Positions 926-30,664 of a stretch of 37,957 nucleotides of DNA are shown piece by piece (within the stretch, counting starts at the first letter, position 1; every line of letters begins with the position of its first letter). The translations under genes were made by a program, and so were the position numbers. The stretch spans positions 1 to 37,957 of the IMG/VR virus record IMGVR_UViG_3300044712_000518. One strand, written 5' to 3'. The notes under the pieces were generated by a model. That model did no database searches, was not told the origin of the DNA, and saw only the letters and a program-made list of their open reading frames with translations. This stretch comes from a virus.

Positions 926-931
926 AGCCTG

Positions 932-995: not shown

Positions 996-996
996 C

Positions 997-2252: not shown

Positions 2253-2255
2253 GCC

Positions 2256-3713: not shown

Positions 3714-3718
3714 ATCGC

Positions 3719-4007: not shown

Positions 4008-4083
4008 GAGGAATATTCTACCACAACATGGGGTACACGTGAACATCACTTCGTCAATTGATATTCAAGTGTACCTCTCAGAA

Positions 4084-5378: not shown

Positions 5379-5391
5379 TGTCTTCTCCTTG

Positions 5392-5853: not shown

Positions 5854-6017
5854 TTGTCTTTTTCCTGGACAGCTTCCGTCTCTGATAGAACCTGCCTTGC
5901 CTCAATGACAGCCGCATAAACAACCATCTGCACTTCCCTATTCTTGGACTGGCACGCTTTCATTACCAGCCTGCGGATCGTGTTCGCGTCTTCGATTGCC
6001 TCTACAAGTTCATCCAT
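5850..6017 (-). CDS. Small helical protein in the tail module
   Basis: A 55-residue protein. ATG 6017 is preferred over 6044 because it has a GGAG-type Shine-Dalgarno, while residues encoded upstream come from the G/C repeat. It is one long amphipathic helix pair (VEAIEDANTIRRLVMKAC, then VVYAAVIEARQVLSETEAVQ). No family is recognised. Small helical proteins here may be tail chaperones. Confidence 0.6.
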   Translation of the reverse strand: MDELVEAIEDANTIRRLVMKACQSKNREVQMVVYAAVIEARQVLSETEAVQEKDK

Positions 6018-6029
6018 CTTCTTTCTCCT

Positions 6030-6076
6030 CCCCTCTCCAAACATGCTCTCCGTTTGGGGAGGGGCTGGGGGTGGGG
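6030..6076 (+). repeat. G/C hairpin repeat R2
   Basis: CCCCTCTCCAAAC and its partner GTTTGGGGAGGGG surround ATGCTCTCC, followed by CTGGGGGTGGGG. It lies just upstream of the 55-residue gene and supplies its Shine-Dalgarno flank. Confidence 0.85.
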
Positions 6077-6079
6077 CTG

Positions 6080-11951: not shown

Positions 11952-12953
11952 TTACGAGCCACTTGCCTGGGCGGTGATGCCATACACGCGGGCAATACAG
12001 CGCGGGCGGACGGTGTAGATGCCGAGAGGCCAGTCGATCACGTCGCGGTAGGTCACGCCGTCATTGAGCAAGCCCATATCCTTCACGTCCATGGCGTATT
12101 CCTGCGCGCCACCCAGTTGATCCTTGCCAAATTTCGCGGCGTAAATGCTGGTGCATCCATCGCCACCAGTCAGGGCGCTGCCGTCTGCGGCTTCGTCATG
12201 CCCGATGACTTTGGTACCAGGATCTTCGTCGGTCTCGTCGCGGTTGTAGCCCATCGGGACAAGAAGCACATTTCCATACTTCTTGTACTTCTTTCCGAGA
12301 TGGTCTTCCGTGGTCAGGTCAAGGCCGGAGAAGGTGAAGATGCTGTTGTATTTCATCATGGTCACGCGGTCCATCATCAGCGCGTCACAGTCGCCTTCAT
12401 TGCAGGCGTCCACCAATTCGTCGAGCAGGGTGATGGCTTTCACACGGGTGGCATTCACTGAGAGATCACCAGTCAGGTCGAGACCGTTGGCGTCGATGCT
12501 CTGGCTGGCGGGGTGCGCGTTCACAAGGCGGTAGTGCAAGCCAGTGAATCCGTCTTCATCGGTGGCGGGGTTGCCGTTGATGAAGTAATTGCGGAAGGTG
12601 CGCTTCATGGCAAGCAAATTCATTTCGCGTTCCCATGTGCGGCGATCCACGGGCTGGTTCTTGAGTTTCACAAGAGCCTTGTCCACGTCGATGTTCTGCC
12701 CCAAATGGAAGATGCGATCTTCCACGGTGCGGGTGTCGCCCTTGCTGGATAAATACGGGTTGCCCAGCTTGCGGAAGGATGGCTGGGGCATACTCTTGGC
12801 GCGGGTGAAGGTGATCTTCAAGTCGCCAGTGTCGGTCCACGGAAGTTTGTCCATCAGCGGGTCTTCACGAAACGCCTGGACAAATCCGAGTTTCAAACTG
12901 TCTTTCGATTCGACTGCGTTCTTTGCGTAGTCGGTAAGATATAGGGATGCCAT
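11952..12953 (-). CDS. Major capsid protein, HK97 fold
   Basis: A 333-residue protein in the position just after scaffold. It starts at an ATG with AAGAGG upstream. Features typical of HK97-type coat proteins in short-tailed phages include an N-terminal helical arm, DLKITFTRAKSMPQ, RRTWEREMNLLAMKRTFRNY (the long spine helix), FTGLHYRLVNAHPASQS, DALMMDRVTMMKYN and KKYKKYGNVLLVPMG. The C-terminus is VYGITAQASGS. It forms the icosahedral shell, and no cross-link motif is obvious. Confidence is high from gene order and pattern together. Confidence 0.85.
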   Translation of the reverse strand: MASLYLTDYAKNAVESKDSLKLGFVQAFREDPLMDKLPWTDTGDLKITFTRAKSMPQPSFRKLGNPYLSSKGDTRTVEDRIFHLGQNIDVDKALVKLKNQPVDRRTWEREMNLLAMKRTFRNYFINGNPATDEDGFTGLHYRLVNAHPASQSIDANGLDLTGDLSVNATRVKAITLLDELVDACNEGDCDALMMDRVTMMKYNSIFTFSGLDLTTEDHLGKKYKKYGNVLLVPMGYNRDETDEDPGTKVIGHDEAADGSALTGGDGCTSIYAAKFGKDQLGGAQEYAMDVKDMGLLNDGVTYRDVIDWPLGIYTVRPRCIARVYGITAQASGS

Positions 12954-12968: not shown

Positions 12969-13670
12969 TTATTGATCCTTCTTCGCTGCTTGTTCCAGGT
13001 AGAAGGATGCTGGTTTGGTTGGGTCATATCCTTGTACTGCGGTTGCTGCCCCTGCCGCTCCTGCGAGTCTGCCTGGGGCTTTCTTCTGCTGTGCTTGAAG
13101 GCGCTGCGCTTTCGCTCGGCTGGCGTCGATGGAGGCAAGGACAAACAGATCGGGGTTCCCGTTCGGGTCGTCCAGTATTGCTTGCATCCCTGCCCACTCC
13201 TTATCATTCGGAGTGACCTCGGTGCCGCCTGCCAATTTGAAGGCGTTGGTTTTGAGTGTTTCAATGAACTGCCCAGGGTCGAAGGGTTCTGTCGAAGGTG
13301 GTTGTGCCTGTCCGCTTTGCGCTTGCGGGGTCGGCTTGGCAAAGGCATTCATCTGTTCGTCTTCGATGATCGCCTTCTGCGCCTGCTTCACCTGGTCGTC
13401 AGTGAGATTCAGCACGCCCTTGTTGGTGTCGAGGGCTGCGAACCGTTCCGCGATTCTCTGGTTGATTCGGTTCTCACTCTTCGCCGTCTGTGACTGCGCG
13501 ACTCTCATGGCCTCTTCACGGGCAATCTGTCTGAAGTCTTCGGCGGTTAGGGGTTTTGCTTCCGTCTGCGGTTGCGCCTGAGTACTGCCCTGGTCGGGAG
13601 TGGTCTCTGCAACTTCGTCCGCCTGAGTGATCGGCTCGGCGACTGCTTGGGAATTGGTTTCGTCTTGCAT
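12969..13670 (-). CDS. Capsid scaffolding protein
   Basis: A 233-residue acidic, Gln/Ala-rich protein. ATG 13670 is preferred over upstream codons because it has GAGGAGG 8 nt before it. Residues 1-40 are acidic and disordered (DETNSQAVAEPITQADE, TTPDQGSTQ), residues 45-85 and 130-200 are helical, and the C-terminus is Lys/Gln-rich (ASIDASRAKAQRLQAQQKKA). This composition and the place immediately before the major capsid gene fit the assembly scaffold that is removed during maturation. No protease is encoded in the fusion. Confidence 0.75.
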   Translation of the reverse strand: MQDETNSQAVAEPITQADEVAETTPDQGSTQAQPQTEAKPLTAEDFRQIAREEAMRVAQSQTAKSENRINQRIAERFAALDTNKGVLNLTDDQVKQAQKAIIEDEQMNAFAKPTPQAQSGQAQPPSTEPFDPGQFIETLKTNAFKLAGGTEVTPNDKEWAGMQAILDDPNGNPDLFVLASIDASRAKAQRLQAQQKKAPGRLAGAAGAATAVQGYDPTKPASFYLEQAAKKDQ

Positions 13671-13699
13671 TTTTTGTGCCTCCTCTAGCACTTGGCAAA

Positions 13700-14043: not shown

Positions 14044-17000
14044 CTACTTCCCGTACATCATCCCAGGCACAACCTCCGAAGTCAGCCAACTCTTGAAGTC
14101 GCCCATCGGCATCCCCTCGTTGATCCAGACCTGCTCCAGCGCCTTCGATGCTCCGCTCGGTAGCTTGCCGCCTGTGAATGCGTAAGTCCTCACATAGTCT
14201 TCCAGCATGGGAGGCCACCCGCTGGTATCCACCTGCTTGAAGACCTGCCCGCCAAAGATCGGCTTATATTCTGGGTAGGCTTCGTACCATCCGTCCTTCC
14301 AGTCCCAATACTTTTTCAGGTCTGGATGTTCCGCCAAATAGCGCGCCTTCTCACCCTTCGTTGCCAGGTTGTAGTATCCCTGCTGGGTTTCGTAATAGTT
14401 CGGGAATAGCCGCGTGCGGTCCTCGAAGAACTTGTCGGTCACCTGTGTGATTGCAGGATCATACAAGTCCAGCTTCGGCGTCGTCGGCTTGTTCCCCTCT
14501 CCTCTCAGGGGAGGGGCCAGGGGTGGGGTCTTGCTGGGGGCCTTCGGCGTCATCTGCCCCAACATCTGCGCCCACTGGGTCAGGGTGTCGATGTCCAGCG
14601 TCTCATAACTGCGCGTCTCTTTGTCGAGAAACGACTGCTTGAACATCTCGCCCATCTGCGCCGATGCTTCCTTCTTGTTGGTTGTCCCCAATTCCATGTA
14701 TCCGTCCCATATCTGACCGATCAGGAATGACTTCAATCTCTCTTCTGGTTCCTTGCCCTTCGCCAGGTACGCTTCATACTCGGGGTGCATCTCGAAGAAG
14801 TTGTTGATGGCTTCCTTATCGCCCGCGTCGCGTCTCTTCCAGGCTTCGTTCCATTCCTCTTTCAAGCCTCGGTATTCCAGTTCACCCGCAGGCAATAGGC
14901 TTGCCCCAAAGAGACTCGGCAATGCTGCTGCCGCCCCTGCCATTGCGCCTTTGTTCAATCCAGCATACAGCGCCCCAGCCGTTGGCACACGCAAGGCCAG
15001 TTCCATCTTCACCCGCTCCTCGGCTTCGGTAAAGATGTCACCCTGCCGTTCGATCATGGCGATCTGCGCCTGCTCCGAGTCGATCTTTCCTTCTGCCACC
15101 ATGTTGGCGATCTGTCGGTCGATGTAATAATCTCCATACTCGCCGAACTCAGGGATGCCCAGCTTCTTCTTCAACATTTCTTCTGGCTTTCCGATCAGCC
15201 CAATCAGGTCGCCCACGGGTTGCGCCCATGTGCCTTGTGTCACGGTGTCAATTGCCCGTGCTGTGTTCGCCAGTGGGGTGCTGGTGACCTCGTTTGCCTT
15301 GCCGCTTGCCAGTTTGTAGGGGGTGGTCAAATACCAGGCTGGTCCGAACATGGTATTCATGAAGTCCACGGGGTTGTTCACTTCGCTCTCGCGTCTCTGT
15401 TGTGCTTCGGCGAAGGCGCGTTCGTAGATGGTCCCGCTTCTTGTCTGTGCGGCTTTTATGATGTCGGCTTCCGAGTACTTCCCGTCTGCCGTCCATTCCT
15501 GCAAGATGCGTTCGGCTTCGATCTGCTGATAGGTGTGCTGCTGGGTCATGCGATCAAAGGGCTTCAACAGGCTGGCGGGTGGGAACAGACTCCCAATCGG
15601 GTCAATGTACAATCCGTCACCCATCCAATCGGGTAACCAGGGGGCGTTGATCTTGATCTTGCCGCGCAGTCTCTCGGGGATGTCCCGTTCATAGCGGTTC
15701 TGTTGGTTGTGCAGGCGGGCGTAGTTCGAGAAGATGGCGGGCTTATCCAGTGCGCGCATCGCCCAGTTGACCATCGTCCTGGTTTGGTAGAACTGGTAGG
15801 GGTAAACGGTCTCTGCCACTCGGTCGAACCCGTACCGCTTGCTGTAGTTGAGCATGGCAAAGTCGCGCTTCTGTTCTGCGTGTCGGATGGTCGCCAGTTT
15901 GGTGGTCGCCATTTCGCCCTGCACCTTCTTCATGTATTGCCTGAGTGCCTTCTGCCCTTCTGGACCTATGTCTCGGCTGGCTCCATCCAGTGGCTTCTCG
16001 CCCAGTTGGTTGATCGCTGCTTCTTCCATGTTCTTCAAGAGCGGTTCCACACTCTGCGCCCAGCCCTGATCCATTACCTCGCTTTGCGGTTGGAACTGAC
16101 TGGCGGCATCATACGATCCGTGCTGCTGGTCGGCTTCCTGGAAGAGGGTATCCACCTTCGGCGCTTCGTACATTCCTGCCTTCATCCGCTGGAGTTTGTT
16201 CATGGTCTGGTCTGGACGAGACTCATAGGCTGCCCTGTATTGGTCAGCCTGTGCCCTTGTCACTGGCTGCATGAGTTTCTCCACCTGCCCTTCGTAGGGT
16301 GTGCCTCCCTTGCGTGTGATCTCCGCTTCCACTGCCGCCCGCACGTTGGGGTTTCTGTACTGTGCGTATTCCGCAAGCAGGGCATCGTTCTCCATCAATG
16401 CCTTCATGATCTTGGGCTTCGTGTACTCTTCTTTGCTCATGCCAAAGGGCTGACCATATTTACTATAGGCGTAATCCTCGAAGGACATCTTCGGGATCTC
16501 CACCTGTGTCAATGCCGATGGGGCTGGCTGCTCTCCTGGCTTGACCACGTGGCTGACCTTCTCGCCGCTCTTCATCTTCTTCCCCAACTGGCGCAGTCTT
16601 TCGGTGTCTATGGCTGCGGCTGTCTGCTGGCTTTTCTCTGCGTCCACCTTTATTTCAAGGTCGCCGCGTTTCAGAATGTCGCCATAGTCCCCGATGTAAT
16701 ATTCCTTCGGGTCGTAGCCCATGCCTTCCATCAGGCTGTTCAAGTCCACCTTTAGGTTGTCGGCTCCCAGCATTCGGTCGAAGACTCTCCGCACATCGTC
16801 ACTGACTTTCACGTCGATGGCGCTGCCCGTGATGGCTTTGTACACGTCCAACATCCACGTGCGGATCATCTCGAAGGCTTTGTTCAGTTTCGGCAGGGGG
16901 GCTTTGCCCGTGGTGACGTAGTTCTCGAACCCGCGTGCAAACTTCTCCTCCGCCGCCCGATCCCAGCTTCCATCCTTCACACCCGCCCATTCTTCCACGG

Positions 17001-20000
17001 TCCGCAGGTCGTGCTTGATCTGCATGTTCCCCGTCCGCTCTGCCACATCCTCCAGCACACGGCGGAACACATGCCCATTCTCATGGACAAGGGTCGTAAA
17101 GTCTGCCGATTCAAAGGCGGTAATGCTGGCTTTGATCCCGTCTGCCCCAAACTTCACCATCCCCTTAGCGGTTCCGCTTGTCTGGTAAAGTGCCCCGCGT
17201 TCGTTTGTCTTCGCTGTGTCAAACAAACCACTGAACGCTTCCACCACTGGCTGCATTTCATTCTCCAGCAAATACGGATACCGCCCAGGGTCACGCGAGA
17301 ATTCTTCAATGCCTGCCACGTTTGCAAGGTAATCATTCTGATAGCCTTCCTGTGCCATCTTGAAGATCGTATAGTTCTCGAACGAACGTGCCGCCCGCTC
17401 TATCACCCTGCTCCAGTACCCGTCACCCTTGCCCTTGTCGATCAATGCTGCCCGCTTTGCCATTGGTGAGTCATCCAGCGCCTTCACCAGTTTCGTGAAA
17501 GCCTCTGCCATTTCTGGACGCACCCCCTCCACCTTTGCCCAGTCTGCCGGGTTGCGGATTCCGTTCTTCTCTTTGAGATAATTGAAGCGGGTTTCAGATA
17601 GCCGCTCTCCCTTCGGGCTTTGGTAATAGGTCTCAGGTTGGTAGGTAATGTAACTGCCTTCACGCCCAACGGCTGCCCCGCGTTTCCGTTGGAAGTAATT
17701 GTCCAGCGCATGGAACCATTCATGTGCAAGAGATCCCGCCCCGCGTGTCTTGGTCAGGTTGATGACGATGTTGTCTGTCTCGTAGTGTGCCGCTGCGTTT
17801 CCGCTTCCGCGTGATCCGAGTCCCAGTCCAAGAGTCCCATCCAGTGAGATCGCCTTGGGGGGAATGTTCGTAATATCCGCCAGGTCCATCAGTGCGTCAT
17901 AGGCGGCGTTCAACATTCCCTGTCTCTCCTTCATGTTCCCGCCCTGTGAAACCCAGTTGCCGAACTCCACACCCCTGAACCCAAAGGAGTCCATGAACAT
18001 TTCAGGCGTCGCTTCCTTTCCCTTTCGGTAATCCTTTCCAGTCCTTGGCGCATTCTCCGCCCGTCTAACGTCAGTTTCTTTTACGTTGTCGCTTTCCTTC
18101 ACACCTTCCCATGCCTGCACCAGGTCGGCGCGGTTCTCTTTGATAAACGCGAACGCTTCCTTCTCGTTGTCAAATTCCTTCAATCTCCGATAAAGCGGGT
18201 CGCCTGCTTTGTTGATAAACATCTTCCCGTCGCGTCCCACTCTCACTTCAAACTTCATGGTGGCGGTGGCGGGCTTCACTTCTCCGCCTAATTTCTCCAG
18301 CACTGCGCTGGTCAATTCGTCGAAGTTTGTGGTGTGAATGGTTTTCCCGTCCACCTCTGCCACGGCATAAGGCTTGGCAACTTTCTGCCCGTCCTTGTAG
18401 GTATATGCTTCTGGATAGTAGCGCACTTCCCCAACCCTGCCCCACTTCTCACGTGGTAGCTGGCTCAGTAATTCAGTCTTTGATACGAACCCTTCCAGTC
18501 CCACCCTTGCCCGTGCGCCTGATAGAACTGCACCCACACCCTTTTCATTGGCTACCTTGATTAGCCCCTGCACTTGCTTTACCTGCTCCACCCATCGCTT
18601 CAACTTCCAACTATCTCGCGGTTTGGTCGGGATCGAATCGCGGATGGCTTGGGTCATCGCTGCCAGGCTCACATCTTCGATGTTATCCACAATAGACTTG
18701 GGGAATATCTCAGACAGCTTCATCCGTGCAATGTCGCCATCACTATACTCCACCATCTGCACCGCTGCCTTATCCTTCCGTGCTCCCCCAAGTTTCTCAC
18801 CGAAGTCAGTCAGTTTTCCCGTTGTGTTAGGTGTGGTTTGCACCTTCAACAATTCCTGCTGCTGTGGGGCTGTGTCTACTTTTGGTGCTTCAACCAATTC
18901 GGGCTGTTGTGGTGCTGTCGCTGCCTCTTGTTTTACTTCCTCGATCTTGCTGAATAAATCCAATTGGCGCGCTCCAACAGGCGCAAACATATCAAGCTGC
19001 GCCTCCTGGAACAATATATCCATCTCCCCGCGTGCCACTCCCTCCGCCATTTTCGCATCAAGTTTGTGGGCTTCGTCAAGTATGGCAATGCGGTCTGCCT
19101 TGTTCGCCTCGTTGCGGATCGCGTTTCTCAGTTCCCCTTCCCCGCCCCTCACCAGCATCCGCGCATAGTTCTCCGCGTCTGCCGGGGTCATGGTTCTTTC
19201 CGCTACTTCGATGCGGTTGTACGATTGCTTGAGTCCCTCTATCGGGTTGGTGTCGCCGCTGTCCGCCCGTTCCACATCCGCATAGTATCTTGTGTAGAAC
19301 TCGTCGGGGTTCTCTCCCGTCTGCCTGCTCACCCATCCAGCCAGTGAGTCGCTCAGTTCCATGTAGGCGTCGGCTTGCTGGTCGTTGAGTTTGAAGGCTT
19401 CCTGAAACTTCTCACGCATCAACTGGCGGGTGGTCACTGCTTCGGCGCGTGTCTGCTGCTGGGCAATGGCTTGCTCTGCGCGTGTGGCGTTCTCTGCCGC
19501 CTTCTGGTATAAGGTGCTCTCCTCCACCTTGGCGGCTGTCTCGTCTGCCATGCGACTCATGTAGGCGTCCCACTCTTCTCCGCTGGGTGCCAGGGTCTTG
19601 TTCAGTTCCTCGGGAAAGTCACCGATCAGTTCATACATGCGGTTCAGGTCGCCGCCCTGGGTGGCTGCTGTAAAATCGTCCTGCCATTTGAGCATGTCGA
19701 TGTTCTGGAAGTCGAACGAGTCGTCGAAGGCTCTCACCGCTGCCTCGGTCTGCGCTTTGGCAAGGGAGGCTTCATAGTCATGGGCAACTGGGTACACCTT
19801 GTCCCCGGTGCGGGCGCGGTTTATCAGGGCGGTGGTCTGTGCCACTCCGCCTATATCGTTCGGGTCGTTTAGGTCAATCGGATATCCTTCGTCTGTCAAT
19901 AGGCGGGCGATCTCATCGATGCCCCTGCCCTTGCGCGTGAACACTCCAGGCGCGGTCTTCGGTCTTGCCTCGCCCGTGATGTCCTTTGCCATGCCCAACT

Positions 20001-23000
20001 GTAGCCCGCCCAGTTCTGAGATGGCTTTCAGGATGGTGGTGTTCTCGTTGATCCTCGGTGCCTTGGCGTTGGCTGCTGCCTGGTCTGCCCGTATCACTGC
20101 GGACTCCACCTGCTGTACTGCCGCTTGTTCTTTCACTGCCTGTCTGCGGTCGAGGATTTCCTTCACCAGTTCAGGTGTCAGGCGCGGATCGCTCAGTCCT
20201 GAAAGGTCTTCCACTCCACCGTATTCGGTTTTACGCAGGGCATTCATCAGGGCAAACTTATCCTGTAGGATGGTGCGGTCATACGCCAGCCCTTCGCGTG
20301 CGTAACTCTCCGCCACATCCCACACAGATTTCATTCGATCCGCTGCCCCCTTTGCCTCTTCCGCCTTCCGCTGCTCTGCCGCTTTCATCATGGCGTTGAA
20401 CTCTTCCACGCGGTCAAGCTGCTGCTGTTTCTTCTTCGCCTCGGCACTGGCAATCGTGCGCGCACTCTGCTGGTCAGGCGTCACTTCTCCCCCCAAATTG
20501 CTCTCTATTTGGGGGGATGTCTGCGAAGCAGACAGGGGGGCTGGGCTTGGGTTTGGTGACTGTGGACTCCCACCCTGTCCTTCGTTACTCGTCCCGCCGC
20601 CCTTCTTGATGACCCGCTCCAGCCGTGCGATTCCCTCGCCATTGATGCGGTCGGCTTCCACGATCATCCCCACCTTGTCCTTGCTGTAATACTCCTGTTT
20701 GGCAATGTCGCGCTGATCCTTGGTCATTCCTTCCAGGCTGTTACGGAAGTCACGCTCACGCTGAACGATCTCATCATTGAACCTGGTCACTTCCTCGAAC
20801 CATTGGCGCGCTGCCTCCCCTGCTGCTGGGCTGTACATCTTCTCATAAATTCCAGCCAATGCTTCACCCTGCCGCACTTCTGCCGCGTGTTTGTCTTTGA
20901 ATGCCTTCTTGAACAGGGCGTCGATCTTGTTATTGTTCGCGTCCCATTCGTCCCAGCGGGCGGGGTTGTCGAAGTCGTCCCGCCACTTGTCAAAGAATCC
21001 CCTGCGGATCTCGCGCATCTGTGTATATGCCCCGCTCATGGATGTGTCCACGTCGCCGATGGCTGCCAGCATTTTGATGGCGTCGGGGTTTTGGCTCATG
21101 CCCCATGCTTCAAAGATACCCTGATAGTTTGCGGCATGGCGGGCGTACACCCTGCGGAATTCCTCGTCGCTCTGTTGGTAGTTCAGTTCAATGGCTTTGC
21201 TGCGCTGGGCGGGGTCGTCCAATAATTGCAGGTCGTTCATCACTTCGCCGAAGCGTGCATAATGGTCAAGCCAGGTGTCGGTGAATGCGGCATTGGCTTT
21301 CTGTGCCACGTCCAGGGCGGTGGTGGCTCCCTCCAGTCCCACCTTCTGCTTGACTGATTCGGCAATGGCTTTCAGGTCTTCGCCCGTCTGCATGTCTGCC
21401 CAATCCTGCGCCTGCTTTCGTGCCTTCTGGAATGCTGCCCGTACCCCGTCCGCGTCTGTCCTGCCTTTCAGATGGTTATCCAACACATCGAGGATGCCGA
21501 TCTGGTCCAGCATGGTAGCCGCCTGTCCTGCGCTCATGCCTGTCTTCTGTGCCGCATCGTTCACAAGACTCCGCGCCTGCACTCCTTCAAACCGTCCGAA
21601 GAGTGCGCGTTCGATCTCGCCCTGGTTCATGCCTGCTTCAATGGCTGCATAGATTCGGTCTGGTTTTACGCCTAGCGCATTGATCGCCTGTGTTAGTTCG
21701 GGTGTCATCTTCGAGAAGCCCACTCCCCGCCGCCAACTCTCTGACCAGAATTGTTTCATGCCGATGGCGAATGCCTGTTTGCTTTCGCTTGCCTCGAACC
21801 AACTGGATAGCTTGCTGAATGGCATCCCCTTCGAGAGTTTGCCCAGTGCGTTCTTCGCATTGGTCAACGCTCCCTTGCCCTTCATTGCCTCGTCCATTGC
21901 GCTGGTCACCACCCCACTCTTGCCCGCTGCCATTTCAACCTGTCCGCCAATACCCACCCCTTCTTCCAGACGTGCAGGTGCTACGCCCATGCGGTCCATG
22001 AAGCTGTTGATCTGGTTCGGTGTCAGGTAGCCATAGATACCCGTGGCTGCGCGGTGGACCATGTTGCTCAGTCCGTTGGTGATGGCGTACCCAGGACTCC
22101 CACCCAAGAGTAGGATGGATTGTGCCTGCTTCATCAGTGCGGTGGTGCGGAAGAATGCGCTGGTGGCTTCGGGGCTTTTGTCGAGCATCAATCTCTTGGT
22201 CACCCACTCATCGAAGTGTGTGCCCAAAGTATCCAACATCTGCGCCTTCCACTGTGCTGGGTGCCAGGGTAGCGCGCCGTCACCAGTAAAAACGTCAACT
22301 GTCTGCTTCAAGGTGTCGGCTGTGAACTTGCCAGCTTCAATGTCTGCCAGCATTCCCTTTGCTTGTGGGTCTGTGCTCTGTCGTAGGCGTTCCACGATGC
22401 GGGCATAGTCCTGTTGTGCGGTTCCGTTCTTTGCCAGGTCGTCGAGCAGGCGGGCGGGTTCCTCTCCTAAAATGTTGGAGAGGGTGGTCAGCATGTCGCG
22501 GTTGGTGGCGCTGATCTCCCATGCCTGTGTGATGCCTTGTAGCTTCTCGGTAGCAAAGTCTTTCAGGGCTGGGAGGATGGTATAAAACTCGGGGCTGTCG
22601 GCAAACTTGCTGCCCAATGCGCTCCAGGTTTCGTTGTCACCTTTGGCAATGGCGTTCAGGTATTTGCCCGCGTCTTCGGGGGTGTCGAACATGGTCAGCA
22701 TTGCCCCGATGTTTTCATAGAACATGCCCGCCCCAGTCTGTGCCCTGCTGTGTGGGGTTTGGCTGGTCATGTTTTCGAGGAAGCCTGTCTTGTTCTTCAC
22801 GGAGTCGAGTAGTCCCATGTTGCTGGGGATGAGACTCCCCGCCCTTACTGCTCCGTTGCTGTTGATCCCTGCAATAAAGCGCGAGAATGCACCCATCTGA
22901 TCCACCTTGAACTTCGGGTCGATGGTCATGGCTTGCCCTGTCTGCACCAGGGTCTTGTATGTTTTCGCGGCTTCGAGTGGCGACTCAGATAACTTGAAGG

Positions 23001-24402
23001 CTTCGGCTGCCACGTTGTGCCCCGTTGCCTCTGCGACCTTTGCCCCGATGGTGGTCTCTGCTTTGGGTAGCACGTTCAACGGGTCGGCAATACCCTGCCC
23101 TGCCATGTCTCCGATCTGTGCCATGATGCCCGTCTGCATTTCAGACATGACCTCACGTTCGTTTCTGCCGTTCTTGATTTCGTTCCTTGCCTGGTCCAGT
23201 CTTTCGACCCACGTCTTTTCAAGTTCTGCGGGCATCGATGCGCCAAGGTAGATTTCCTCTCCCTTGTATTGTTCTGGATTGCGGACGATATCCAGCAACA
23301 CGTCACCATAGAACAGGGTCGGTAGCAATCGCTTGGCATCGTTCCAGTCCAGCCGTCCCTTTCCTTCCTGCATCCTCGCCTGAATTGCAGGCGCGATCAC
23401 TTCAAAGAAACTGGCTCCAGCGTTCCATGTTGCCTTCGTGGTTTGCTTATCCTTGAACAGGTCAGCTACATTTTTGTTTGGGTCAACCGCCGCATTCGCC
23501 GCTTGTGCTGCTGTGCCGATGGTCTTCTCTGCCTGCTCTGCTGCCCAGTTCATCAAGCCCATGCCAGCGTTGACAGTATCCTTCACCTGCTGCTTGTCCC
23601 AGGTCAACTTCTTGTCGCCCTGCTGCCACCATTCCTTATTCTGGTCGTAGCCCCCCCATCCTGCTGCTGCTCCAAGTGCTGCCCCTAATACTGCCCCGCC
23701 TGGATTTCCTCCTCCCATGATTCCGCCTTGGATTGCTCCCATTACAGCGGGTCGGCTGCTTGCGTTGAAGTATGCTTGTTGCCAGTTGATGCCCGTGTCT
23801 ATCCCCGCCACTTTTAGATTCGGAAGTTTATCCCATTGGAAGTTCGGGTCGGCAAGTATCTGCTGCTGTATCTCTGGCGAGTACTTGGTGATCTGGTTGT
23901 TCTTGTAGAAGTTCGGGTCGGCAAGCATCGCTTCCCTGTCACTCACTGACTGGTCAGTCCATAATGCTTGCCCACCCGTCACATCTTCATTCGTGGCGAA
24001 CTTCGGGGTCTGCACCACCACGGGGGCTTCGTTCACATCCCTGCGTCCGATGCTCATCCCTGCTAAATTTCCAGTCTGCGCCGTCATTCCCTGCTGGGGT
24101 GCGCGTGCAGGGGTGAACTGTTTTACCAGTAATCCGTTGTCGTTGATGGCATATCCAGACGGCACCCCTCGGTTTTTCTGTAGCCGCTGTTGAAGTTGAA
24201 ACGACTCCATAGATCGCTGATCCTGCTGACGGAATGCCTGCTGTGGGGTGAATCCAGGCGGCAGTGTATTCACAGTCACCCCCCTCGACTGCATGTTGTT
24301 CACTGTCGGCATGTTCTGGTTCGGTTGCCCTTGCTGCTGCTGGTCACGTTGTTGTCGTTGTCGTCTTACTTCTTCCGCGAGACTGGCTTGATTTAGACTC
24401 AT
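14044..24402 (-). CDS. Giant polyvalent protein with two zincin metalloprotease modules (LPD1-like, MuF-slot)
   Basis: A 3452-residue protein, 27% of the genome, starting at ATG 24402 with GAGGA upstream. Order: a Gln-rich disordered N-terminus; a glycine-zipper, membrane-active segment (about 219-255, IQGGIMGGGNPGGAVLGAALG); a second hydrophobic stretch near 760 (SILLLGGSPGYAITNGLS); long helical regions; a repeat-derived insert near 1285; two clamp-like motifs, QLDMF (1802-1806) and QLDLF (1813-1817); an LPD1-like module (FGFRGVEFGNW at about 2137, with SLDGTLGLGLGSRGSGNAAAH) ending in zincin HEWFHALD (HExxH 2227-2231); a second zincin, HENGH (2440-2444); further helical domains; and a C-terminal segment near 3006 (NPVDFMNTMFGPAWYLTTPY) like polyvalent-protein C-termini. 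It follows the portal operon where MuF head-morphogenesis genes usually lie, so ejection with the DNA and proteolysis in the host are likely. There is no tape-measure pattern. Confidence 0.85.
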   Translation of the reverse strand: MSLNQASLAEEVRRQRQQRDQQQQGQPNQNMPTVNNMQSRGVTVNTLPPGFTPQQAFRQQDQRSMESFQLQQRLQKNRGVPSGYAINDNGLLVKQFTPARAPQQGMTAQTGNLAGMSIGRRDVNEAPVVVQTPKFATNEDVTGGQALWTDQSVSDREAMLADPNFYKNNQITKYSPEIQQQILADPNFQWDKLPNLKVAGIDTGINWQQAYFNASSRPAVMGAIQGGIMGGGNPGGAVLGAALGAAAGWGGYDQNKEWWQQGDKKLTWDKQQVKDTVNAGMGLMNWAAEQAEKTIGTAAQAANAAVDPNKNVADLFKDKQTTKATWNAGASFFEVIAPAIQARMQEGKGRLDWNDAKRLLPTLFYGDVLLDIVRNPEQYKGEEIYLGASMPAELEKTWVERLDQARNEIKNGRNEREVMSEMQTGIMAQIGDMAGQGIADPLNVLPKAETTIGAKVAEATGHNVAAEAFKLSESPLEAAKTYKTLVQTGQAMTIDPKFKVDQMGAFSRFIAGINSNGAVRAGSLIPSNMGLLDSVKNKTGFLENMTSQTPHSRAQTGAGMFYENIGAMLTMFDTPEDAGKYLNAIAKGDNETWSALGSKFADSPEFYTILPALKDFATEKLQGITQAWEISATNRDMLTTLSNILGEEPARLLDDLAKNGTAQQDYARIVERLRQSTDPQAKGMLADIEAGKFTADTLKQTVDVFTGDGALPWHPAQWKAQMLDTLGTHFDEWVTKRLMLDKSPEATSAFFRTTALMKQAQSILLLGGSPGYAITNGLSNMVHRAATGIYGYLTPNQINSFMDRMGVAPARLEEGVGIGGQVEMAAGKSGVVTSAMDEAMKGKGALTNAKNALGKLSKGMPFSKLSSWFEASESKQAFAIGMKQFWSESWRRGVGFSKMTPELTQAINALGVKPDRIYAAIEAGMNQGEIERALFGRFEGVQARSLVNDAAQKTGMSAGQAATMLDQIGILDVLDNHLKGRTDADGVRAAFQKARKQAQDWADMQTGEDLKAIAESVKQKVGLEGATTALDVAQKANAAFTDTWLDHYARFGEVMNDLQLLDDPAQRSKAIELNYQQSDEEFRRVYARHAANYQGIFEAWGMSQNPDAIKMLAAIGDVDTSMSGAYTQMREIRRGFFDKWRDDFDNPARWDEWDANNNKIDALFKKAFKDKHAAEVRQGEALAGIYEKMYSPAAGEAARQWFEEVTRFNDEIVQRERDFRNSLEGMTKDQRDIAKQEYYSKDKVGMIVEADRINGEGIARLERVIKKGGGTSNEGQGGSPQSPNPSPAPLSASQTSPQIESNLGGEVTPDQQSARTIASAEAKKKQQQLDRVEEFNAMMKAAEQRKAEEAKGAADRMKSVWDVAESYAREGLAYDRTILQDKFALMNALRKTEYGGVEDLSGLSDPRLTPELVKEILDRRQAVKEQAAVQQVESAVIRADQAAANAKAPRINENTTILKAISELGGLQLGMAKDITGEARPKTAPGVFTRKGRGIDEIARLLTDEGYPIDLNDPNDIGGVAQTTALINRARTGDKVYPVAHDYEASLAKAQTEAAVRAFDDSFDFQNIDMLKWQDDFTAATQGGDLNRMYELIGDFPEELNKTLAPSGEEWDAYMSRMADETAAKVEESTLYQKAAENATRAEQAIAQQQTRAEAVTTRQLMREKFQEAFKLNDQQADAYMELSDSLAGWVSRQTGENPDEFYTRYYADVERADSGDTNPIEGLKQSYNRIEVAERTMTPADAENYARMLVRGGEGELRNAIRNEANKADRIAILDEAHKLDAKMAEGVARGEMDILFQEAQLDMFAPVGARQLDLFSKIEEVKQEAATAPQQPELVEAPKVDTAPQQQELLKVQTTPNTTGKLTDFGEKLGGARKDKAAVQMVEYSDGDIARMKLSEIFPKSIVDNIEDVSLAAMTQAIRDSIPTKPRDSWKLKRWVEQVKQVQGLIKVANEKGVGAVLSGARARVGLEGFVSKTELLSQLPREKWGRVGEVRYYPEAYTYKDGQKVAKPYAVAEVDGKTIHTTNFDELTSAVLEKLGGEVKPATATMKFEVRVGRDGKMFINKAGDPLYRRLKEFDNEKEAFAFIKENRADLVQAWEGVKESDNVKETDVRRAENAPRTGKDYRKGKEATPEMFMDSFGFRGVEFGNWVSQGGNMKERQGMLNAAYDALMDLADITNIPPKAISLDGTLGLGLGSRGSGNAAAHYETDNIVINLTKTRGAGSLAHEWFHALDNYFQRKRGAAVGREGSYITYQPETYYQSPKGERLSETRFNYLKEKNGIRNPADWAKVEGVRPEMAEAFTKLVKALDDSPMAKRAALIDKGKGDGYWSRVIERAARSFENYTIFKMAQEGYQNDYLANVAGIEEFSRDPGRYPYLLENEMQPVVEAFSGLFDTAKTNERGALYQTSGTAKGMVKFGADGIKASITAFESADFTTLVHENGHVFRRVLEDVAERTGNMQIKHDLRTVEEWAGVKDGSWDRAAEEKFARGFENYVTTGKAPLPKLNKAFEMIRTWMLDVYKAITGSAIDVKVSDDVRRVFDRMLGADNLKVDLNSLMEGMGYDPKEYYIGDYGDILKRGDLEIKVDAEKSQQTAAAIDTERLRQLGKKMKSGEKVSHVVKPGEQPAPSALTQVEIPKMSFEDYAYSKYGQPFGMSKEEYTKPKIMKALMENDALLAEYAQYRNPNVRAAVEAEITRKGGTPYEGQVEKLMQPVTRAQADQYRAAYESRPDQTMNKLQRMKAGMYEAPKVDTLFQEADQQHGSYDAASQFQPQSEVMDQGWAQSVEPLLKNMEEAAINQLGEKPLDGASRDIGPEGQKALRQYMKKVQGEMATTKLATIRHAEQKRDFAMLNYSKRYGFDRVAETVYPYQFYQTRTMVNWAMRALDKPAIFSNYARLHNQQNRYERDIPERLRGKIKINAPWLPDWMGDGLYIDPIGSLFPPASLLKPFDRMTQQHTYQQIEAERILQEWTADGKYSEADIIKAAQTRSGTIYERAFAEAQQRRESEVNNPVDFMNTMFGPAWYLTTPYKLASGKANEVTSTPLANTARAIDTVTQGTWAQPVGDLIGLIGKPEEMLKKKLGIPEFGEYGDYYIDRQIANMVAEGKIDSEQAQIAMIERQGDIFTEAEERVKMELALRVPTAGALYAGLNKGAMAGAAAALPSLFGASLLPAGELEYRGLKEEWNEAWKRRDAGDKEAINNFFEMHPEYEAYLAKGKEPEERLKSFLIGQIWDGYMELGTTNKKEASAQMGEMFKQSFLDKETRSYETLDIDTLTQWAQMLGQMTPKAPSKTPPLAPPLRGEGNKPTTPKLDLYDPAITQVTDKFFEDRTRLFPNYYETQQGYYNLATKGEKARYLAEHPDLKKYWDWKDGWYEAYPEYKPIFGGQVFKQVDTSGWPPMLEDYVRTYAFTGGKLPSGASKALEQVWINEGMPMGDFKSWLTSEVVPGMMYGK
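14494..14529 (+). repeat. G/C hairpin repeat R4, inside the giant gene
   Basis: CCCCTCTCCTCTCAGGGGAGGGG then CCAGGGGTGGGG. It is in frame and encodes PPLAPPLRGEG in a linker near residue 3290, so the element can insert into coding sequence without a stop. Confidence 0.8.
18952..18999 (-). other. Region encoding tandem beta-clamp-like motifs QLDMF and QLDLF
   Basis: QLDMF is encoded at 18985-18999 and QLDLF at 18952-18966, 6 residues apart in the giant protein. Both fit the beta sliding clamp consensus QL[SD]LF and sit in a linker between domains, where such motifs act. Confidence 0.6.
20488..20550 (+). repeat. Variant G/C hairpin repeat R5, in frame in the giant gene
   Basis: CTCCCCCCAAAT pairs with ATTTGGGGGGAT, followed by the mini hairpin GTCTGCGAAGCAGAC and CAGGGGGG. 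It encodes a Ser/Pro/Gln-rich linker near residue 1285. It is related to but different from the R1-R4 type. Confidence 0.7.
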
Positions 24403-24425: not shown

Positions 24426-25244
24426 CTATCCCTTCCAGTTCAATTGAAACAGTCCCATGTCGGCGGGATATGCTGTTTGGGTGTATTGCCTGGGCTGGTA
24501 ATCGGCGTTGTCCCAGCCGTAGTTCGTGCCAAACCCACCACCGCCACCACCGCGCCAGTATTTGCCATATCCGCCGCCATTGTTGACAGGTTGGTTCAAT
24601 GCTTTCCAGCGGTCAAAGTACCCGCCTGCTCCACCCGCAGATTGAAGGTTGCCATAGTTATACGCATCCATCACTCCCGAAGCATTTGCCGCGGCGATAC
24701 CGGGATCGGTGTAATTGTCGTAGATGCTTCCACCAAATCCGCCTGTGGCTGGCTGCTGTGTTGTGGTCGGTATGGTGGTCGGCTGTTCACTTGGACGGTA
24801 TCCGCCCGGGTTCCAGCGTGATGCGGGTTGGAGCGGGCTGCTGATTGGCTGGGTGATGTTGTTTACGCTCCACAAAGACGGTGACGATACATTGGGAGAT
24901 GAAGCCTGCCCTGGTCTCGCCCAGTTCGGGAGGTTTCCCTGTATGTTATTTACCCATGCAGGGCGGGGTGTTTCCTGTCCACTCGTGATGCTGGCGGGGG
25001 TGTTGAAGTTTGGCACGGCTGCATTCCCACCGCCAATTCCAGAAGGAGTCAGTGAGAAGTTGTCTTCATAGGTGCTGTTCCGCCTGCCCGCTGTGCCCGT
25101 GCCCGAGGCTCCCAGTGCATTCCCCAGGTTGGTGTTTGTATTGGTTACGGGTGTGCTGGCTCCCGCTCCTCTGCCTCTGCCTGCTTCTGCCCATGCTGGG
25201 GTTGTTGCTGGTCTTCGTATCGATCCATTATTATTTGCTTGCAT
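24426..25244 (-). CDS. Asn/Gly/Pro-rich disordered internal protein
   Basis: A 272-residue protein of low complexity. ATG 25244 is chosen because it has AAAGGAG 5 nt upstream. A longer reading from a GTG at 25307 would add a hydrophobic 21-residue leader (MKQLLFIALIMWMGV) and cannot be excluded. The sequence has blocks of Gly, Asn and Pro, with Trp and Tyr scattered (for example NNGGGYGKYWRGGGGGGFG). No domain is recognised. It sits between the portal block and the giant gene, a place for internal or ejection-associated virion proteins, and may help pack or fold the giant protein. Confidence 0.65.
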   Translation of the reverse strand: MQANNNGSIRRPATTPAWAEAGRGRGAGASTPVTNTNTNLGNALGASGTGTAGRRNSTYEDNFSLTPSGIGGGNAAVPNFNTPASITSGQETPRPAWVNNIQGNLPNWARPGQASSPNVSSPSLWSVNNITQPISSPLQPASRWNPGGYRPSEQPTTIPTTTQQPATGGFGGSIYDNYTDPGIAAANASGVMDAYNYGNLQSAGGAGGYFDRWKALNQPVNNGGGYGKYWRGGGGGGFGTNYGWDNADYQPRQYTQTAYPADMGLFQLNWKG

Positions 25245-25303
25245 ATTGTTCTCCTTTGGTTGCACGCCCATCCACATGATGAGCGCAATAAATAAGAGTT
25301 GTT

Positions 25304-25522
25304 TCACTTCATCATCTCCATGAGCATCTTGTACTCGTCGGGTCGCTCACGTTGAAATTGTTCCTTCATCGCTGGCGGCATCTGTGCCCATTGCATCTTG
25401 AACCTGTCCATCATTTGCGGCAGGGCAATCTCCTGCAATATCTCGCGCATCACCACTTGAACATCCGCCTGCGCTTCAAGCATCACATCCCGCAGGTCAA
25501 AGGATTTACCAGTCAGGTTCAT
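25304..25522 (-). CDS. Small helical protein behind portal
   Basis: A 72-residue protein. ATG 25522 has GAGGAG upstream and follows the portal stop by two bases. It is one long helix (RDVMLEAQADVQVVMREILQ, then MMDRFKMQWAQMPPAMKEQF), Met- and Gln-rich, with no cysteines. It may be a portal or head-assembly accessory protein. No family is recognised. Confidence 0.65.
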   Translation of the reverse strand: MNLTGKSFDLRDVMLEAQADVQVVMREILQEIALPQMMDRFKMQWAQMPPAMKEQFQRERPDEYKMLMEMMK

Positions 25523-25524
25523 GG

Positions 25525-27315
25525 CTATCTCCTCTGGCTTGTCGGGATCATGGCGTCAGTCTTCGGTTGTGTCTCCATTCCTGGCTGCCCCTGCATCTGT
25601 GCCATTTGTTCCATCATCGCGGGGTCTGGCATTCCTCCGCCCTGAGCGATAGCCGAAGGGTCAGGCGGCATCCCATTTTGGGAAGGCATCCCCTCGGGCA
25701 TCACATCTTGGGAAGGTGGACTCGCTGGGGCTGGGGCTGGGGGTGGTGTCGGCTTCTGTCCCATCGCTGCCATCAGCATCGGCTTCATCAGTTCAGGGTT
25801 CGCAAGTATCTGCTGCACAATCGCGGCACGGAAGTCTTCCTTCGTCTTGGCTTTGAACATCTCCTCGCTGTTGGGGATCTTCAAGATGTGCGTGTTCATC
25901 CATTCGTTGCTGATGTTGGTGTTCGCGGCTTTGAGGTTGGTCACTACCTGGGCATTGCGTAGATCGTCCTGTGTCAGGTTCGGCTCCAGCGTGACTTCCA
26001 GTTCAATGTCATCGGGGATGTCGTTCGGGGAGATCAGTGTATTATCGATGCCCTCCGCCTTGATCCGTTTCAGGATGTACAGCATGGCGTCCCTGAATGC
26101 CATGGCAATCCCTTCCTTCGGGTCTTCGGCTGGCAACTTGCTGGCGTTCATGCTGGTCACGTACCCGCTGAATGTGCTGTTGTCGGCTCCCGCTCCAAAG
26201 GCTTCGGGCTTGATCGTGCTGCTGCTGTTGGTGGTATCCATCAACTGTTTCAACTGCAACACGTCGCCGTCGATCACCTGAATGTTTTCCAGCTTGCCTT
26301 TTGCCGTGATGATCTTCACGCCCTGGTCATACTTTACGGTCAATTCGCTGGTGTCTTCGGGGTCTTTCACCAGTGTCGGTCCAGGTAATCCCTGCATGAA
26401 GATGGCAGTGAACAGGTAAGTCCAGAACAGGTTCTCGCGTTTGTCCCATTCGCCTTTCGCCTTGGCATACAGGAAGGGATGAAGCTGGCGTTCGGGTTCG
26501 TACCATAGGCTGCTGCCGCCACCGAAGCGCACGAATACGGGCAACTGCGCCACATCGTCGCTGTCCAGGTCAACCCAGGTATCAGCAAACAGTTCACCAG
26601 TCACACCTTCCGCCCAGGTCAGGCGCTTGTCGTAGTGGAAGAAGTCATAAACGGTATATTTTCCGTCCGTCTTCACGTTTGCATCCTGGCATCCCCATCG
26701 TTCTTTCAGCACGTTGCCCCTCACTTCGTACTTGCGCAGGTGTCCGATCAGTCCGAGTTCTCCCCATTCGGGATAGCTTTGGGCGGGGTTCACAGTGCCG
26801 ATCAGGAAGGGCGTGCGTTTCTTCAAGTCTTCCAGCTGGCGCACCACGAACTTGTTGACGTTCTCTTTGTCGTTGCCTTCGCCGTCCTTTGTCTTGGCGG
26901 TGATCAGATCGTCCACGCTTTCCACGGTCAGCACGCTCATGCCATACAGCACAGAAGCCAGGTTCTCATCCTTCTCCACGCTGGCAATCCGCCGCTCATT
27001 GCTCACTCTCAGGATGGTCTTCAATGCGGCTTCGATATCGTTTGCTTTGGGTACGTTGTCCTTGTCCTTGATCTTGATCTGTATCTCGCCCGTGTCCAGA
27101 ATGCGCTTGAGTCCAGTCACGTCATTCCTGCCTTGCGGGGAGATGGTGATCTTCATGTCGTTCGGGTCAACGTCCAGCCCCTTCGGTTTCTCTGCATTGT
27201 CCATGAAGTAGATTTCTTCATAGCGTTTGCACATCTCTTTGTAGGGTCCGTACATGGTCACCAGCCCAGTCGCCAGGGCTTTCATGTCACTGATTTCTTG
27301 GGGGGTTAGGGTCAT
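25525..27315 (-). CDS. Portal protein
   Basis: A 596-residue protein in the order TerS-TerL-portal. Its start overlaps the TerL stop by 4 bases. The N-terminal domain (about 1-200) and wing/clip region (about 200-430, including WYEPERQLHPFLYAKAKGEW and NLFWTYLFTAIFMQGL) follow the portal layout, with a long helix (FRDAMLYILKRIKAEGI) before the crown. The C-terminus (about 520-596) is Pro/Met/Gln-rich and disordered and contains a diverged copy of the second repeat family. It forms the dodecameric DNA channel. Family pattern plus gene order give good confidence. Confidence 0.85.
   Translation of the reverse strand: MTLTPQEISDMKALATGLVTMYGPYKEMCKRYEEIYFMDNAEKPKGLDVDPNDMKITISPQGRNDVTGLKRILDTGEIQIKIKDKDNVPKANDIEAALKTILRVSNERRIASVEKDENLASVLYGMSVLTVESVDDLITAKTKDGEGNDKENVNKFVVRQLEDLKKRTPFLIGTVNPAQSYPEWGELGLIGHLRKYEVRGNVLKERWGCQDANVKTDGKYTVYDFFHYDKRLTWAEGVTGELFADTWVDLDSDDVAQLPVFVRFGGGSSLWYEPERQLHPFLYAKAKGEWDKRENLFWTYLFTAIFMQGLPGPTLVKDPEDTSELTVKYDQGVKIITAKGKLENIQVIDGDVLQLKQLMDTTNSSSTIKPEAFGAGADNSTFSGYVTSMNASKLPAEDPKEGIAMAFRDAMLYILKRIKAEGIDNTLISPNDIPDDIELEVTLEPNLTQDDLRNAQVVTNLKAANTNISNEWMNTHILKIPNSEEMFKAKTKEDFRAAIVQQILANPELMKPMLMAAMGQKPTPPPAPAPASPPSQDVMPEGMPSQNGMPPDPSAIAQGGGMPDPAMMEQMAQMQGQPGMETQPKTDAMIPTSQRR
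25641..25660 (+). repeat. CCTGAGCG-CGAAGGG family repeat, copy 2
   Basis: CCTGAGCGATAGCCGAAGGG in the Pro/Met-rich tail of the portal gene, in the same orientation as the copy at 37390. Confidence 0.65.
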
Positions 27316-28877
27316 ATCGCTCTTCTTCCTTGCGCGGGGTGGGTTGCTGCCTTACCCTGCGGCTTGTTCTCTGGTTGTTTGAGGTTGGTCAGTAGATACT
27401 TCAACATGTCAAAGGCATCATCACCTTCGACCTTCTTCACATCTTCGGCATCCTTGCCCATCATTGCATCTTCACAGACCAGGGTTTCCATGCACTCGAA
27501 CACGTCATAATATTGCTCGAAGACTTGTAGCATGGGTTTTGTTTCCCCTCCCTGGTTTGGGTCGGGTCCTTCTTCGGCTAGCAGTCTGTCTATCTTGCGG
27601 ATGCCGTTGATGCGGTCGTTGTCGGCGAGGGTCAGAATGATTCCGTGTTCTTTGTATTCGTCCACGCTGGTCTGAACTTTCGCGCTTTTCTTTGCGGTCT
27701 TTGCCCACATGTCGGGGCTGGCAAATGTGACCGTGATCCTTTCGTCGGGCGGGGTCATGTCGCCGATCATCTCTGCCTGGGCTGCGTCGTATAGTTCCTG
27801 TGCTTCCACTGCTCGGTATATGTAAACCCGTCCTGTGCCTGGGTCTTTGGTTGCCCACCCCACAACCATCGGATGCTTATACCCATAGTCCAATGCCCGC
27901 CACTTTGCCCAATGGCTGGGGATGGGGAAGGGCTTGCAGGTCATCCGCTCTTTGATCCATGTCGGGAATCTCTGCCCAGCAAACACGCTCCAGTCGCCAT
28001 ATCTCAATGCCTTTGCCACGGCTTGGCTGCGCTTCATCAGTCGGCTTTCATACTCGGGGTCTGCTGCGTTGCCGATGCCGTTGTCTTCGAGGAAGGCGGG
28101 AATGAAGTAAACCTTCTCTCTCTGACCGTTCTTGTTCATCACTTCCTTGACCGTGTTGTGATCCCCCAGCTTCTTCTCCATGTCGAATTCCTGGCTATAC
28201 CATTGGTGTCCGATGTTGCCGGGGTTGGTCAGTAACAGGGTGAACGGTTTGAATCCCTGCTCTTTGATCTCGCCGCTGGCACGGTTACGGGTTTGCAAAT
28301 AGTCAACGATGAACCAGGTAAAACTTGTAGCTTCATCTACGATCAGGATGTCGGGCTGGCTGCCCTGATAACTGTACACATCGGCTTCACGCTGGCAATG
28401 GCGAAGGTAGAAGGTGCTGCCGTTCGGGAAGTTCCATTCCTTGCCGCCATCCCTGTCTCTGGCAATCCCTCCAAATATTCCCCTTGCCTTTGGGATGATC
28501 GCGCCTGCCCCTCCCAATTCTGAGTAAGTGCGACGGTAGAAAACAGACTGGCATCCCGGCCACAATTGGCTTGCAATGTTGACCAGTGTCAGCGCGCCGT
28601 AACTCTTGCCACCATAAGCCGCGCCACCATAGCCTATGATCCCTGCTGCTGCTGCCCGCTTCTCTCCCGTTGCCCGCCACATCGGTACCATCTGCCCATA
28701 AAACTCGTGTTCCCCTGCTGGCTGGCAGGGGAATCCACATGCTTCAAGTAACCTGGCTTGCTTCTCCTGCACCAGCGGGAAGGCTTGCGGGTTCGTCTCT
28801 TCTGGCATCAATCCGCTGAGGAATAATTCCAGTGAGTTCACGGATAAAATTCCTTCGGGTGTTTGTATCAGGGACAT
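27312..28877 (-). CDS. terL: Large terminase subunit (ATPase/nuclease)
   Basis: A 521-residue packaging motor. Walker A is GYGGAAYGGKS (82-92, K91), Walker B is DILIVDEAT (D181, E182) and coupling motif LLLTNPG follows. The C-terminal RNase H-like nuclease has conserved acidic residues in RALDYGYK, FASPDMW and DDAFDMLKYLL. The start overlaps the small terminase gene by 134 bases. ATG 28877 has a GGAG-type site, while ATG 28808 would leave an overlap of only 65. Both motif sets are complete, so it should be active. The packaging mode cannot be read from the sequence. Confidence 0.95.
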   Translation of the reverse strand: MSLIQTPEGILSVNSLELFLSGLMPEETNPQAFPLVQEKQARLLEACGFPCQPAGEHEFYGQMVPMWRATGEKRAAAAGIIGYGGAAYGGKSYGALTLVNIASQLWPGCQSVFYRRTYSELGGAGAIIPKARGIFGGIARDRDGGKEWNFPNGSTFYLRHCQREADVYSYQGSQPDILIVDEATSFTWFIVDYLQTRNRASGEIKEQGFKPFTLLLTNPGNIGHQWYSQEFDMEKKLGDHNTVKEVMNKNGQREKVYFIPAFLEDNGIGNAADPEYESRLMKRSQAVAKALRYGDWSVFAGQRFPTWIKERMTCKPFPIPSHWAKWRALDYGYKHPMVVGWATKDPGTGRVYIYRAVEAQELYDAAQAEMIGDMTPPDERITVTFASPDMWAKTAKKSAKVQTSVDEYKEHGIILTLADNDRINGIRKIDRLLAEEGPDPNQGGETKPMLQVFEQYYDVFECMETLVCEDAMMGKDAEDVKKVEGDDAFDMLKYLLTNLKQPENKPQGKAATHPAQGRRAI

Positions 28878-30575: not shown

Positions 30576-30603
30576 CTATGTCTGTCGGGCTTGGTTATGT
30601 TTT

Positions 30604-30650
30604 CCCCTCCCTAAACGTGCCCTCCGTTTGGGGAGGGGTCAGGGGTGGGG
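30604..30650 (+). repeat. G/C hairpin repeat R6
   Basis: CCCCTCCCTAAAC pairs with GTTTGGGGAGGGG (one mismatch), followed by TCAGGGGTGGGG. It lies between the terminator and the -10-like box in cassette B. Confidence 0.85.
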
Positions 30651-30664
30651 CTGTTGTCGCTTGA

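Follow-up and report, generated by a model that had tools for sequence, protein, structure and literature searches.

We judge it rather probable, from comparison with related sequences, that the 3452-residue giant protein encoded in the window (the whole stretch of 37,957 nucleotides analysed here) is a self-processing polyprotein, in which the second of two predicted zincin metalloproteases, zincin 2, cuts at L[FY]Q junctions and frees the cargo. The protein has a modular architecture, its gene lies in a conserved synteny, LFQ is associated with zincin 2 among polyvalent proteins, and two of the giant's own sites fall in linkers.

Results

The Giant Gene Lies in a Conserved Head Module

The two ends of the record (1-127 and 37831-37957) are identical over 127 bp, which probably reflects circular closure of the assembly with a unit of 37,830 bp; the record is therefore probably a complete 37.8-kb genome. 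The giant is encoded by a single unbroken ORF on the minus strand (start 24402, end 14044), with a Shine-Dalgarno sequence, GAGGAA, 5' of its ATG. Strand, ribosome-binding site and homologues establish the ORF as genuine, and at 10,359 of 37,957 bases (27.3%) it agrees with the preliminary description of one 3452-residue gene filling 27% of a 38-kb genome. The minus-strand order is terminase, portal-like gene, a 72-aa gene, a Gly-rich 293-aa gene, the giant, a 105-aa gene, a scaffold-like 240-aa gene and capsid; 390-aa and 889-aa genes lie further along on the same strand. The main genes are:

27312..28877, minus strand: terminase large subunit (phrog_979, 2.6e-35)
25525..27315, minus strand: portal protein, from a weak Pfam match (SPP1_portal, E 0.015) and its conserved place (synteny)
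24426..25307, minus strand: Gly-rich 293-aa gene between portal and giant, position conserved (sequence and positional equivalents)
14044..24402, minus strand: giant polyvalent protein gene, 3452 aa (single ORF, Shine-Dalgarno, core homologues)
12969..13691, minus strand: scaffold-like 240-aa gene (composition and place only; synteny)
11952..12953, minus strand: major capsid protein (phrog_212, 2.6e-40; PF20911)

Terminase and portal precede the giant, in agreement with its first description as lying after the portal block. More than 25 related contigs show this gene order around the giant, wholly or largely, and MW202608 shows it in outline, which makes the head-module position a property of the family. 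The conserved synteny is consistent with, rather than proof of, a virion-internal, packaged protein; the giant may be packaged and act early, as was first proposed. Residues 2398-3452 gave no PDB sequence or fold match that would indicate kinship to a proven ejection protein, the 889-aa gene had no match in the PDB, and no tape-measure-like gene was recognised among the genes of the record.

Several other features of the record were observed. A serine recombinase gene (2256-3713, plus strand) suggests a temperate phage. The region 4084-5028 weakly matches the second domain of Mtd (PF21916, 3.1e-4, below the cut-off), and its product is possibly a receptor-binding protein; a search of 1-6200 for a diversity-generating element near this gene found no repeats. 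A DUF5131 protein (1.7e-64; phrog_2045) is encoded at 34141-35211. The Gly-rich 293-aa protein has a C-terminal ending (L..WN-like) that recurs in its positional equivalents; an LFQ near this end was considered as a trans site and rejected, being part of a C-terminal motif found with or without LFQ. A dispersed GC-rich repeat, CCCCTCYCC..GGGGAGGGG..GGGGTGGGG, is present in several copies (14487-14529, 30603-30653, 6029-6079, 1508-1558, 33016-33039, 37791-37833 and others), one of them in frame within the giant at about residues 3292-3306 (PLAPPLRGEG) and another in the 105-aa gene. All three matches to the C-terminal core (C-core) in bacterial genomes come from Chloroflexota MAGs (L211, L212 and L213), two of them on contigs of 130 and 248 kb, far above the length of a phage genome, and the hosts are likely Chloroflexota.

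A Conserved Frame Surrounds a Variable Bay

Comparison of the giant with 46 homologues divided it into a conserved frame (residues ~77-1650 and 2756-3452), whose genes are typically located between portal and capsid genes, and a variable bay between the two frame parts. The features of the protein, from N to C terminus, are:

23638..23748, minus strand: glycine-zipper-like segment, residues 219-255 (GxxxG runs)
19441..24174, minus strand: N-terminal conserved frame, residues 77-1654 (core homologue coverage)
19006..19014, minus strand: LFQ junction 1 (LFQE), residues 1797-1799 (site also in cassette-less L009)
17191..18999, minus strand: cargo cassette LPD5 + zincin 1 + LPD1, residues ~1802-2404 (between the first two L[FY]Q sites)
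17989..18423, minus strand: LPD5, residues 1994-2138 (PF18799, 1.6e-16 on the whole protein, 6.2e-18 on a piece)
17710..17724, minus strand: zincin 1 motif HEWFH, residues 2227-2231 (invariant motif residues; predicted helix)
17203..17439, minus strand: LPD1, residues 2322-2400, with E..AR.FE (PF18796, 1.3e-10 on the whole protein, 7.9e-14 on a piece)
17182..17190, minus strand: LYQ junction 2, residues 2405-2407 (AlphaFold2 pLDDT <50 over 2398-2409)
16753..17172, minus strand: predicted zincin 2 domain, residues 2411-2550, with HENGH at 2440-2444 and FARGFE at 2488-2493 (HMM of relatives)
16138..16146, minus strand: LFQ junction 3 (LFQE), residues 2753-2755 (in a pLDDT <50 stretch, 2728-2770)
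14047..16137, minus strand: C-terminal conserved frame, residues 2756-3452, all-helical (core coverage; AlphaFold2)

The N-terminal frame is covered by up to 33 core homologues per bin before residue ~1250 and by ~8-13 thereafter, with essentially no foreign homologues over residues 77-1654, and most bins of the C-terminal frame are covered by 30-45. The cassette region (~1800-2405) was matched by none of the core homologues first retrieved versus 86 foreign phage polyvalent homologues. One core member, L020, was retrieved via the cassette rather than via the C-core; it carries a 60%-identical cassette after zincin 2, not before it, followed by LFQ. The closest relatives, L008 and L009, are more than 50% identical along the frame and lack residues ~1800-2405, and in L009 the cassette is cleanly missing with LFQE kept in place. 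In L196, whose two frame parts are 51% and 62% identical to those of the giant and whose ORF is cut at the contig end, only 27 residues separate the positions equivalent to 1654 and 2753, and both zincins are absent; the frame is therefore independent of both zincins and the bay is optional. Zincin 2 is also missing from L181, L197 and L014.

Among named phages, a search with the N-terminal 1800 aa gave no match. The C terminus had been likened to that of other polyvalent proteins, which was not borne out: the last 700 aa are without a Pfam match, and their named-phage matches are five records only, all Manatee Spring, at 29% identity, the rest being the giant's own family. The glycine zipper noted at ~219-255 was recovered as overlapping GxxxG runs at 222-248, and L101 and L205 also have a Gly/Ala-rich hydrophobic segment at a similar position.

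Two Predicted Zincins Differ in Their Setting

Pfam searches with the whole giant and with pieces of it found LPD5 and LPD1 and nothing further above the cut-off; no MuF domain was detected by Pfam and PHROGs on the whole protein or by Pfam on pieces. Both HExxH motifs are exactly where they had been reported. HEWFH had been assigned to an LPD1-like module together with FGFRGVEFGNW; the former in fact lies between the LPD5 and LPD1 matches, as does the latter (~2140-2150). With LPD5, LPD1 and two zincin motifs, the giant unites several unrelated domains in a single large chain whose gene is linked to the portal and terminase packaging genes, and its description as a polyvalent protein is supported.

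In zincin 1, the two His and the Glu of HExxH, the Asp three residues past it, a strand-ending His upstream and the downstream E2335 and E2342 are invariant across 48 sequences (alignment positions H222, H243, E244, H247, D250, E351 and E358). As E2335 and E2342 fall in a predicted helix inside LPD1, we propose that the E..AR.FE of LPD1 supplies the third zinc ligand and that LPD1 probably completes the zincin-1 active site instead of forming a separate module. The cassette has relatives in Stx phages and also in plasmid proteins, among which are short ones (L019, 484 aa); zincin 1 therefore needs no phage frame.

The zincin-2 HMM, built from relatives including the giant itself, matches the giant at 8e-52. 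H38, E39, H42, E84 and E91 are invariant in A3 (zincin-2 rows), with the pattern E..FARGFE as in zincin 1. Because both HExxH motifs are invariant in diverse homologues with a downstream E..AR.FE motif, they are more than chance occurrences. We predict from these comparisons that zincin 2 is the resident protease of the frame. In L188, the zincin-2 domain (~1411-1534) reads HELGY, the second zinc His apparently missing, and the LFQ sites are retained.

A joint alignment placed all rows of both zincins on the zincin-2 columns, and the two were modelled separately. The AlphaFold2 model of zincin 1 is confident (pLDDT 89.9, pTM 0.81) and places HExxH and E..AR.FE on a pair of helices with short strands next to them. 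The model of zincin 2 with the C-core is of moderate confidence (pLDDT 74.3, pTM 0.49), is near 90 in its zincin-2 part and shows an all-helical C-core. Foldseek found no PDB match for either model at E<=0.001, and among viral models its significant matches were mainly other polyvalent-type or unnamed proteins; a PDB sequence search with both zincin profiles returned nothing convincing. Motif and secondary structure are what suggest a zincin fold for both domains.

LFQ Is Enriched in Proteins with Zincin 2

In the giant, LFQE precedes both the cassette and the C-core, and LYQ follows the cassette; these module borders led us to test the motif on polyvalent proteins. The set comprised 114 non-redundant proteins, 44 with zincin 2 and 54 with zincin 1 only; a threshold of 50% identity was used for redundancy and alignment, and some related rows remain. 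With zincin 2 ± 60 aa left out of the count, no tripeptide is more over-represented in the 44 zincin-2 proteins than LFQ, which occurs 49 times against 14.6 expected from a Markov model and 14.4 ± 3.7 (maximum 25 in 200) from local shuffling. LFQ is not enriched in the 54 zincin-1-only proteins (9 observed versus 17.5 expected), a comparison between groups that differ in phage lineage and length, the zincin-2 proteins being longer and linker-richer, with density and shuffling giving a partial length correction. The reverse holds for [RML][FY]SR, seen 37 times versus 6.0 ± 2.2 expected in zincin-1-only proteins and 5 times versus 3.7 in zincin-2 proteins.

Varying single positions gave the 7.6-fold enrichment only for Q after LF and only for F in LxQ; before FQ, L is enriched (7.6), as are F and M on small counts. 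The 64 sites are spread over 50 upstream and 41 downstream sequence clusters, and their flanks score as more prone to disorder than permuted controls do (p 4e-8). Many zincin-2 core members have LFQ at the position of junction 3; in BPP-1-like proteins, some of the LFQ sites appear to lie inside domains. The motif idea arose in the same family in which it was later tested; more independent are the comparisons with the proteins that have zincin 1 only and with the BPP-1-like set, and the [FY]SR contrast. A search of open-access papers for a published LFQ site found none, a weak search given that 'LFQ' also denotes label-free quantification.

LFQ Follows Zincin 2 in Controlled Comparisons

Within the core family, L[FY]Q is present in 18 of 19 zincin-2 proteins versus one of nine full-length members without zincin 2, where the single site lies within the helical C-core. 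Zincin 2 undergoes six or more changes on the C-core tree, and its presence agrees with that of LFQ in 34 of 35 rows; LFQ follows in all four supported independent pairs, which is non-significant (p 0.125) because there are just four. Homologous tails point the same way. The ART tail (..GTFDPxNPxI-) runs into LxQ in eight of nine zincin-2 cases (LFQ, LMQ, LNQ, LHQ, LKQ), whereas outside zincin-2 proteins it mostly ends in RFS or RYS. The LPD1 tail ends in [FY]Q in both zincin-2 proteins that have it, while the other 67 have [FY]S in 45 cases and Q in one; at the junction-2 position, the homologous tail of zincin-1-only proteins is mostly [LM][FY]S. The ART domains of L009 and L180 are bordered by LFQ, suggesting protein-modifying cargo in relatives.

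There are four exceptions: L192 has zincin 2 (HEVTH) and no L[FY]Q, L188 keeps LFQ despite its HELGY, L181 has IFQ at the C-core junction without zincin 2, and L096, also without zincin 2, has an ART tail ending in MYQ.

Discussion

In the mechanism that we propose, the N-core and C-core form a frame that holds the bay, in which zincin 2 and exchangeable cargo would be strung on flexible linkers. Zincin 2 would recognise L-[FY]-Q in unstructured linkers and cut in cis or between copies, giving pieces of ~198, 68 (the LPD5-zincin1-LPD1 cargo), 39 (zincin 2) and 79 kDa. The cargo might be freed while the head is being assembled or once the protein has been delivered to the cell; cutting could precede packaging, as inferred for P1 DdrB, or follow delivery, as is possible for N4 RNAP-like proteins. 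We infer cleavage, zincin 2 as the enzyme, its timing, packaging and the action of the cargo from the patterns described above.

It is improbable, in our judgement, that the two zincins are effectors injected to cleave host (defence) proteins, with LFQ simply marking flexible linkers. Such a role would suit the zincin-1 cassette, given its relatives in plasmid proteins, and effector use is listed as one possibility in PMC5512222, but generic linkers leave the zincin-2-specific LFQ unexplained, and the homologous ART and LPD1 tails elsewhere have [FY]S. The preliminary description had both zincins cutting host proteins; zincin 1, as part of the cargo cassette, may indeed act on the host, but zincin 2 is better read otherwise, since it tracks the L[FY]Q of its own junctions.

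LFQ and [FY]SR might instead be lineage-specific linker or recombination signatures of domain shuffling and no protease sites at all, which we also hold to be unlikely. The two classes of protein, those with zincin 1 only and those with zincin 2, stem for the most part from different groups of phages, and the DNA encoding LFQ is slightly more alike than codon usage predicts (nucleotide identity 0.820 versus 0.793 ± 0.010). Against this, LFQ tracks zincin 2 within one family, in every independent tree pair, and it is encoded by 14 different 9-mers with five Leu codons, so that the constraint is mainly on the protein; DNA-level microhomology as the source of LFQ is mostly rejected on the same grounds.

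Short motifs mark the sites at which T4-type head proteases process internal proteins. PMC9024508 discusses how HK97 gp4 and T4 gp21 process the head, and a phage prohead or host enzyme could likewise cut L[FY]Q, with zincin 2 being cargo in need of release. We consider this decidedly unlikely, as giants without zincin 2 are nearly LFQ-free although they retain this head module and no head-protease family was recognised next to the capsid gene. A role for the giant as a tail tape measure or another structural protein, with vestigial zincins, is hardly credible: the C-frame is helical and zincin-2-less members exist, but diverse proteins share invariant motif residues in each zincin, and the gene lies between portal and capsid, not among the tail genes.

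Returning to self-processing by zincin 2, a broader and more tentative proposal, which we find quite possible, is that junction codes are matched to proteases: L[FY]Q in zincin-2 proteins and [RML][FY]SR in zincin-1 (LPD1-type) proteins. Entering cargo (ART or LPD5-zincin1-LPD1) would adopt the tail code of the protein that receives it, and the giant would be a slot carrier with a built-in sequence-specific cutter. Should zincin 2 indeed cut at L[FY]Q, self-processing could be tested simply at the bench. The sequence would then show where cargo begins and ends in many phage proteins that lack annotation, and a new metalloprotease with sequence specificity would be gained. The frame-plus-cargo view would also apply to effector swapping in phages likely infecting Chloroflexota.

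Zincin self-processing of phage-type polyvalent proteins was proposed by Iyer et al. (2017; PMC5512222), who found more than one zincin in ~8% of zincin-bearing polyvalent proteins. The L[FY]Q reading extends that proposal, whose main text, when searched for cleavage sites, names none. The same paper notes that the N4 virion RNAP, which bears such a domain, is packaged unprocessed, which counts against our reading. Like the proteins described there, the giant is very large and multi-domain, combines LPD domains with zincin-like peptidases and is encoded near portal and terminase genes; what sets it apart is a frame that holds a cargo bay, together with a junction motif that goes with the type of zincin.

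The cassette is homologous (27-46% identical) to LPD5-zincin-LPD1 proteins (PHROG 616; Stx phage P27 gp51; Shewanella phage Y11; Moraxella, Alistipes and Vibrio plasmid proteins), with which it shares the strand-ending His and the Asp three past HExxH, as in the widespread clade of PMC5512222. Their cassette tail is usually [LM][FY]S, whereas that of the giant, in a frame with zincin 2, is LYQ. The giants Bbp10 of Bordetella BPP-1, gp16 of Pseudomonas AF and gp32 of Cobetia Carin1 have only the zincin-2 domain in common with ours, at 33-35% identity, and their genes come after those for the tail nozzle, the internal virion protein and the transglycosylase instead of after the portal gene. Podoviridae sp. 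ctptF532 (MW202608), in contrast, has a C-core homologue in the order terminase, portal-like gene, LysM gene, giant and capsid; at 2156 aa, with no zincin and no L[FY]Q, this protein corresponds to the frame without the bay.
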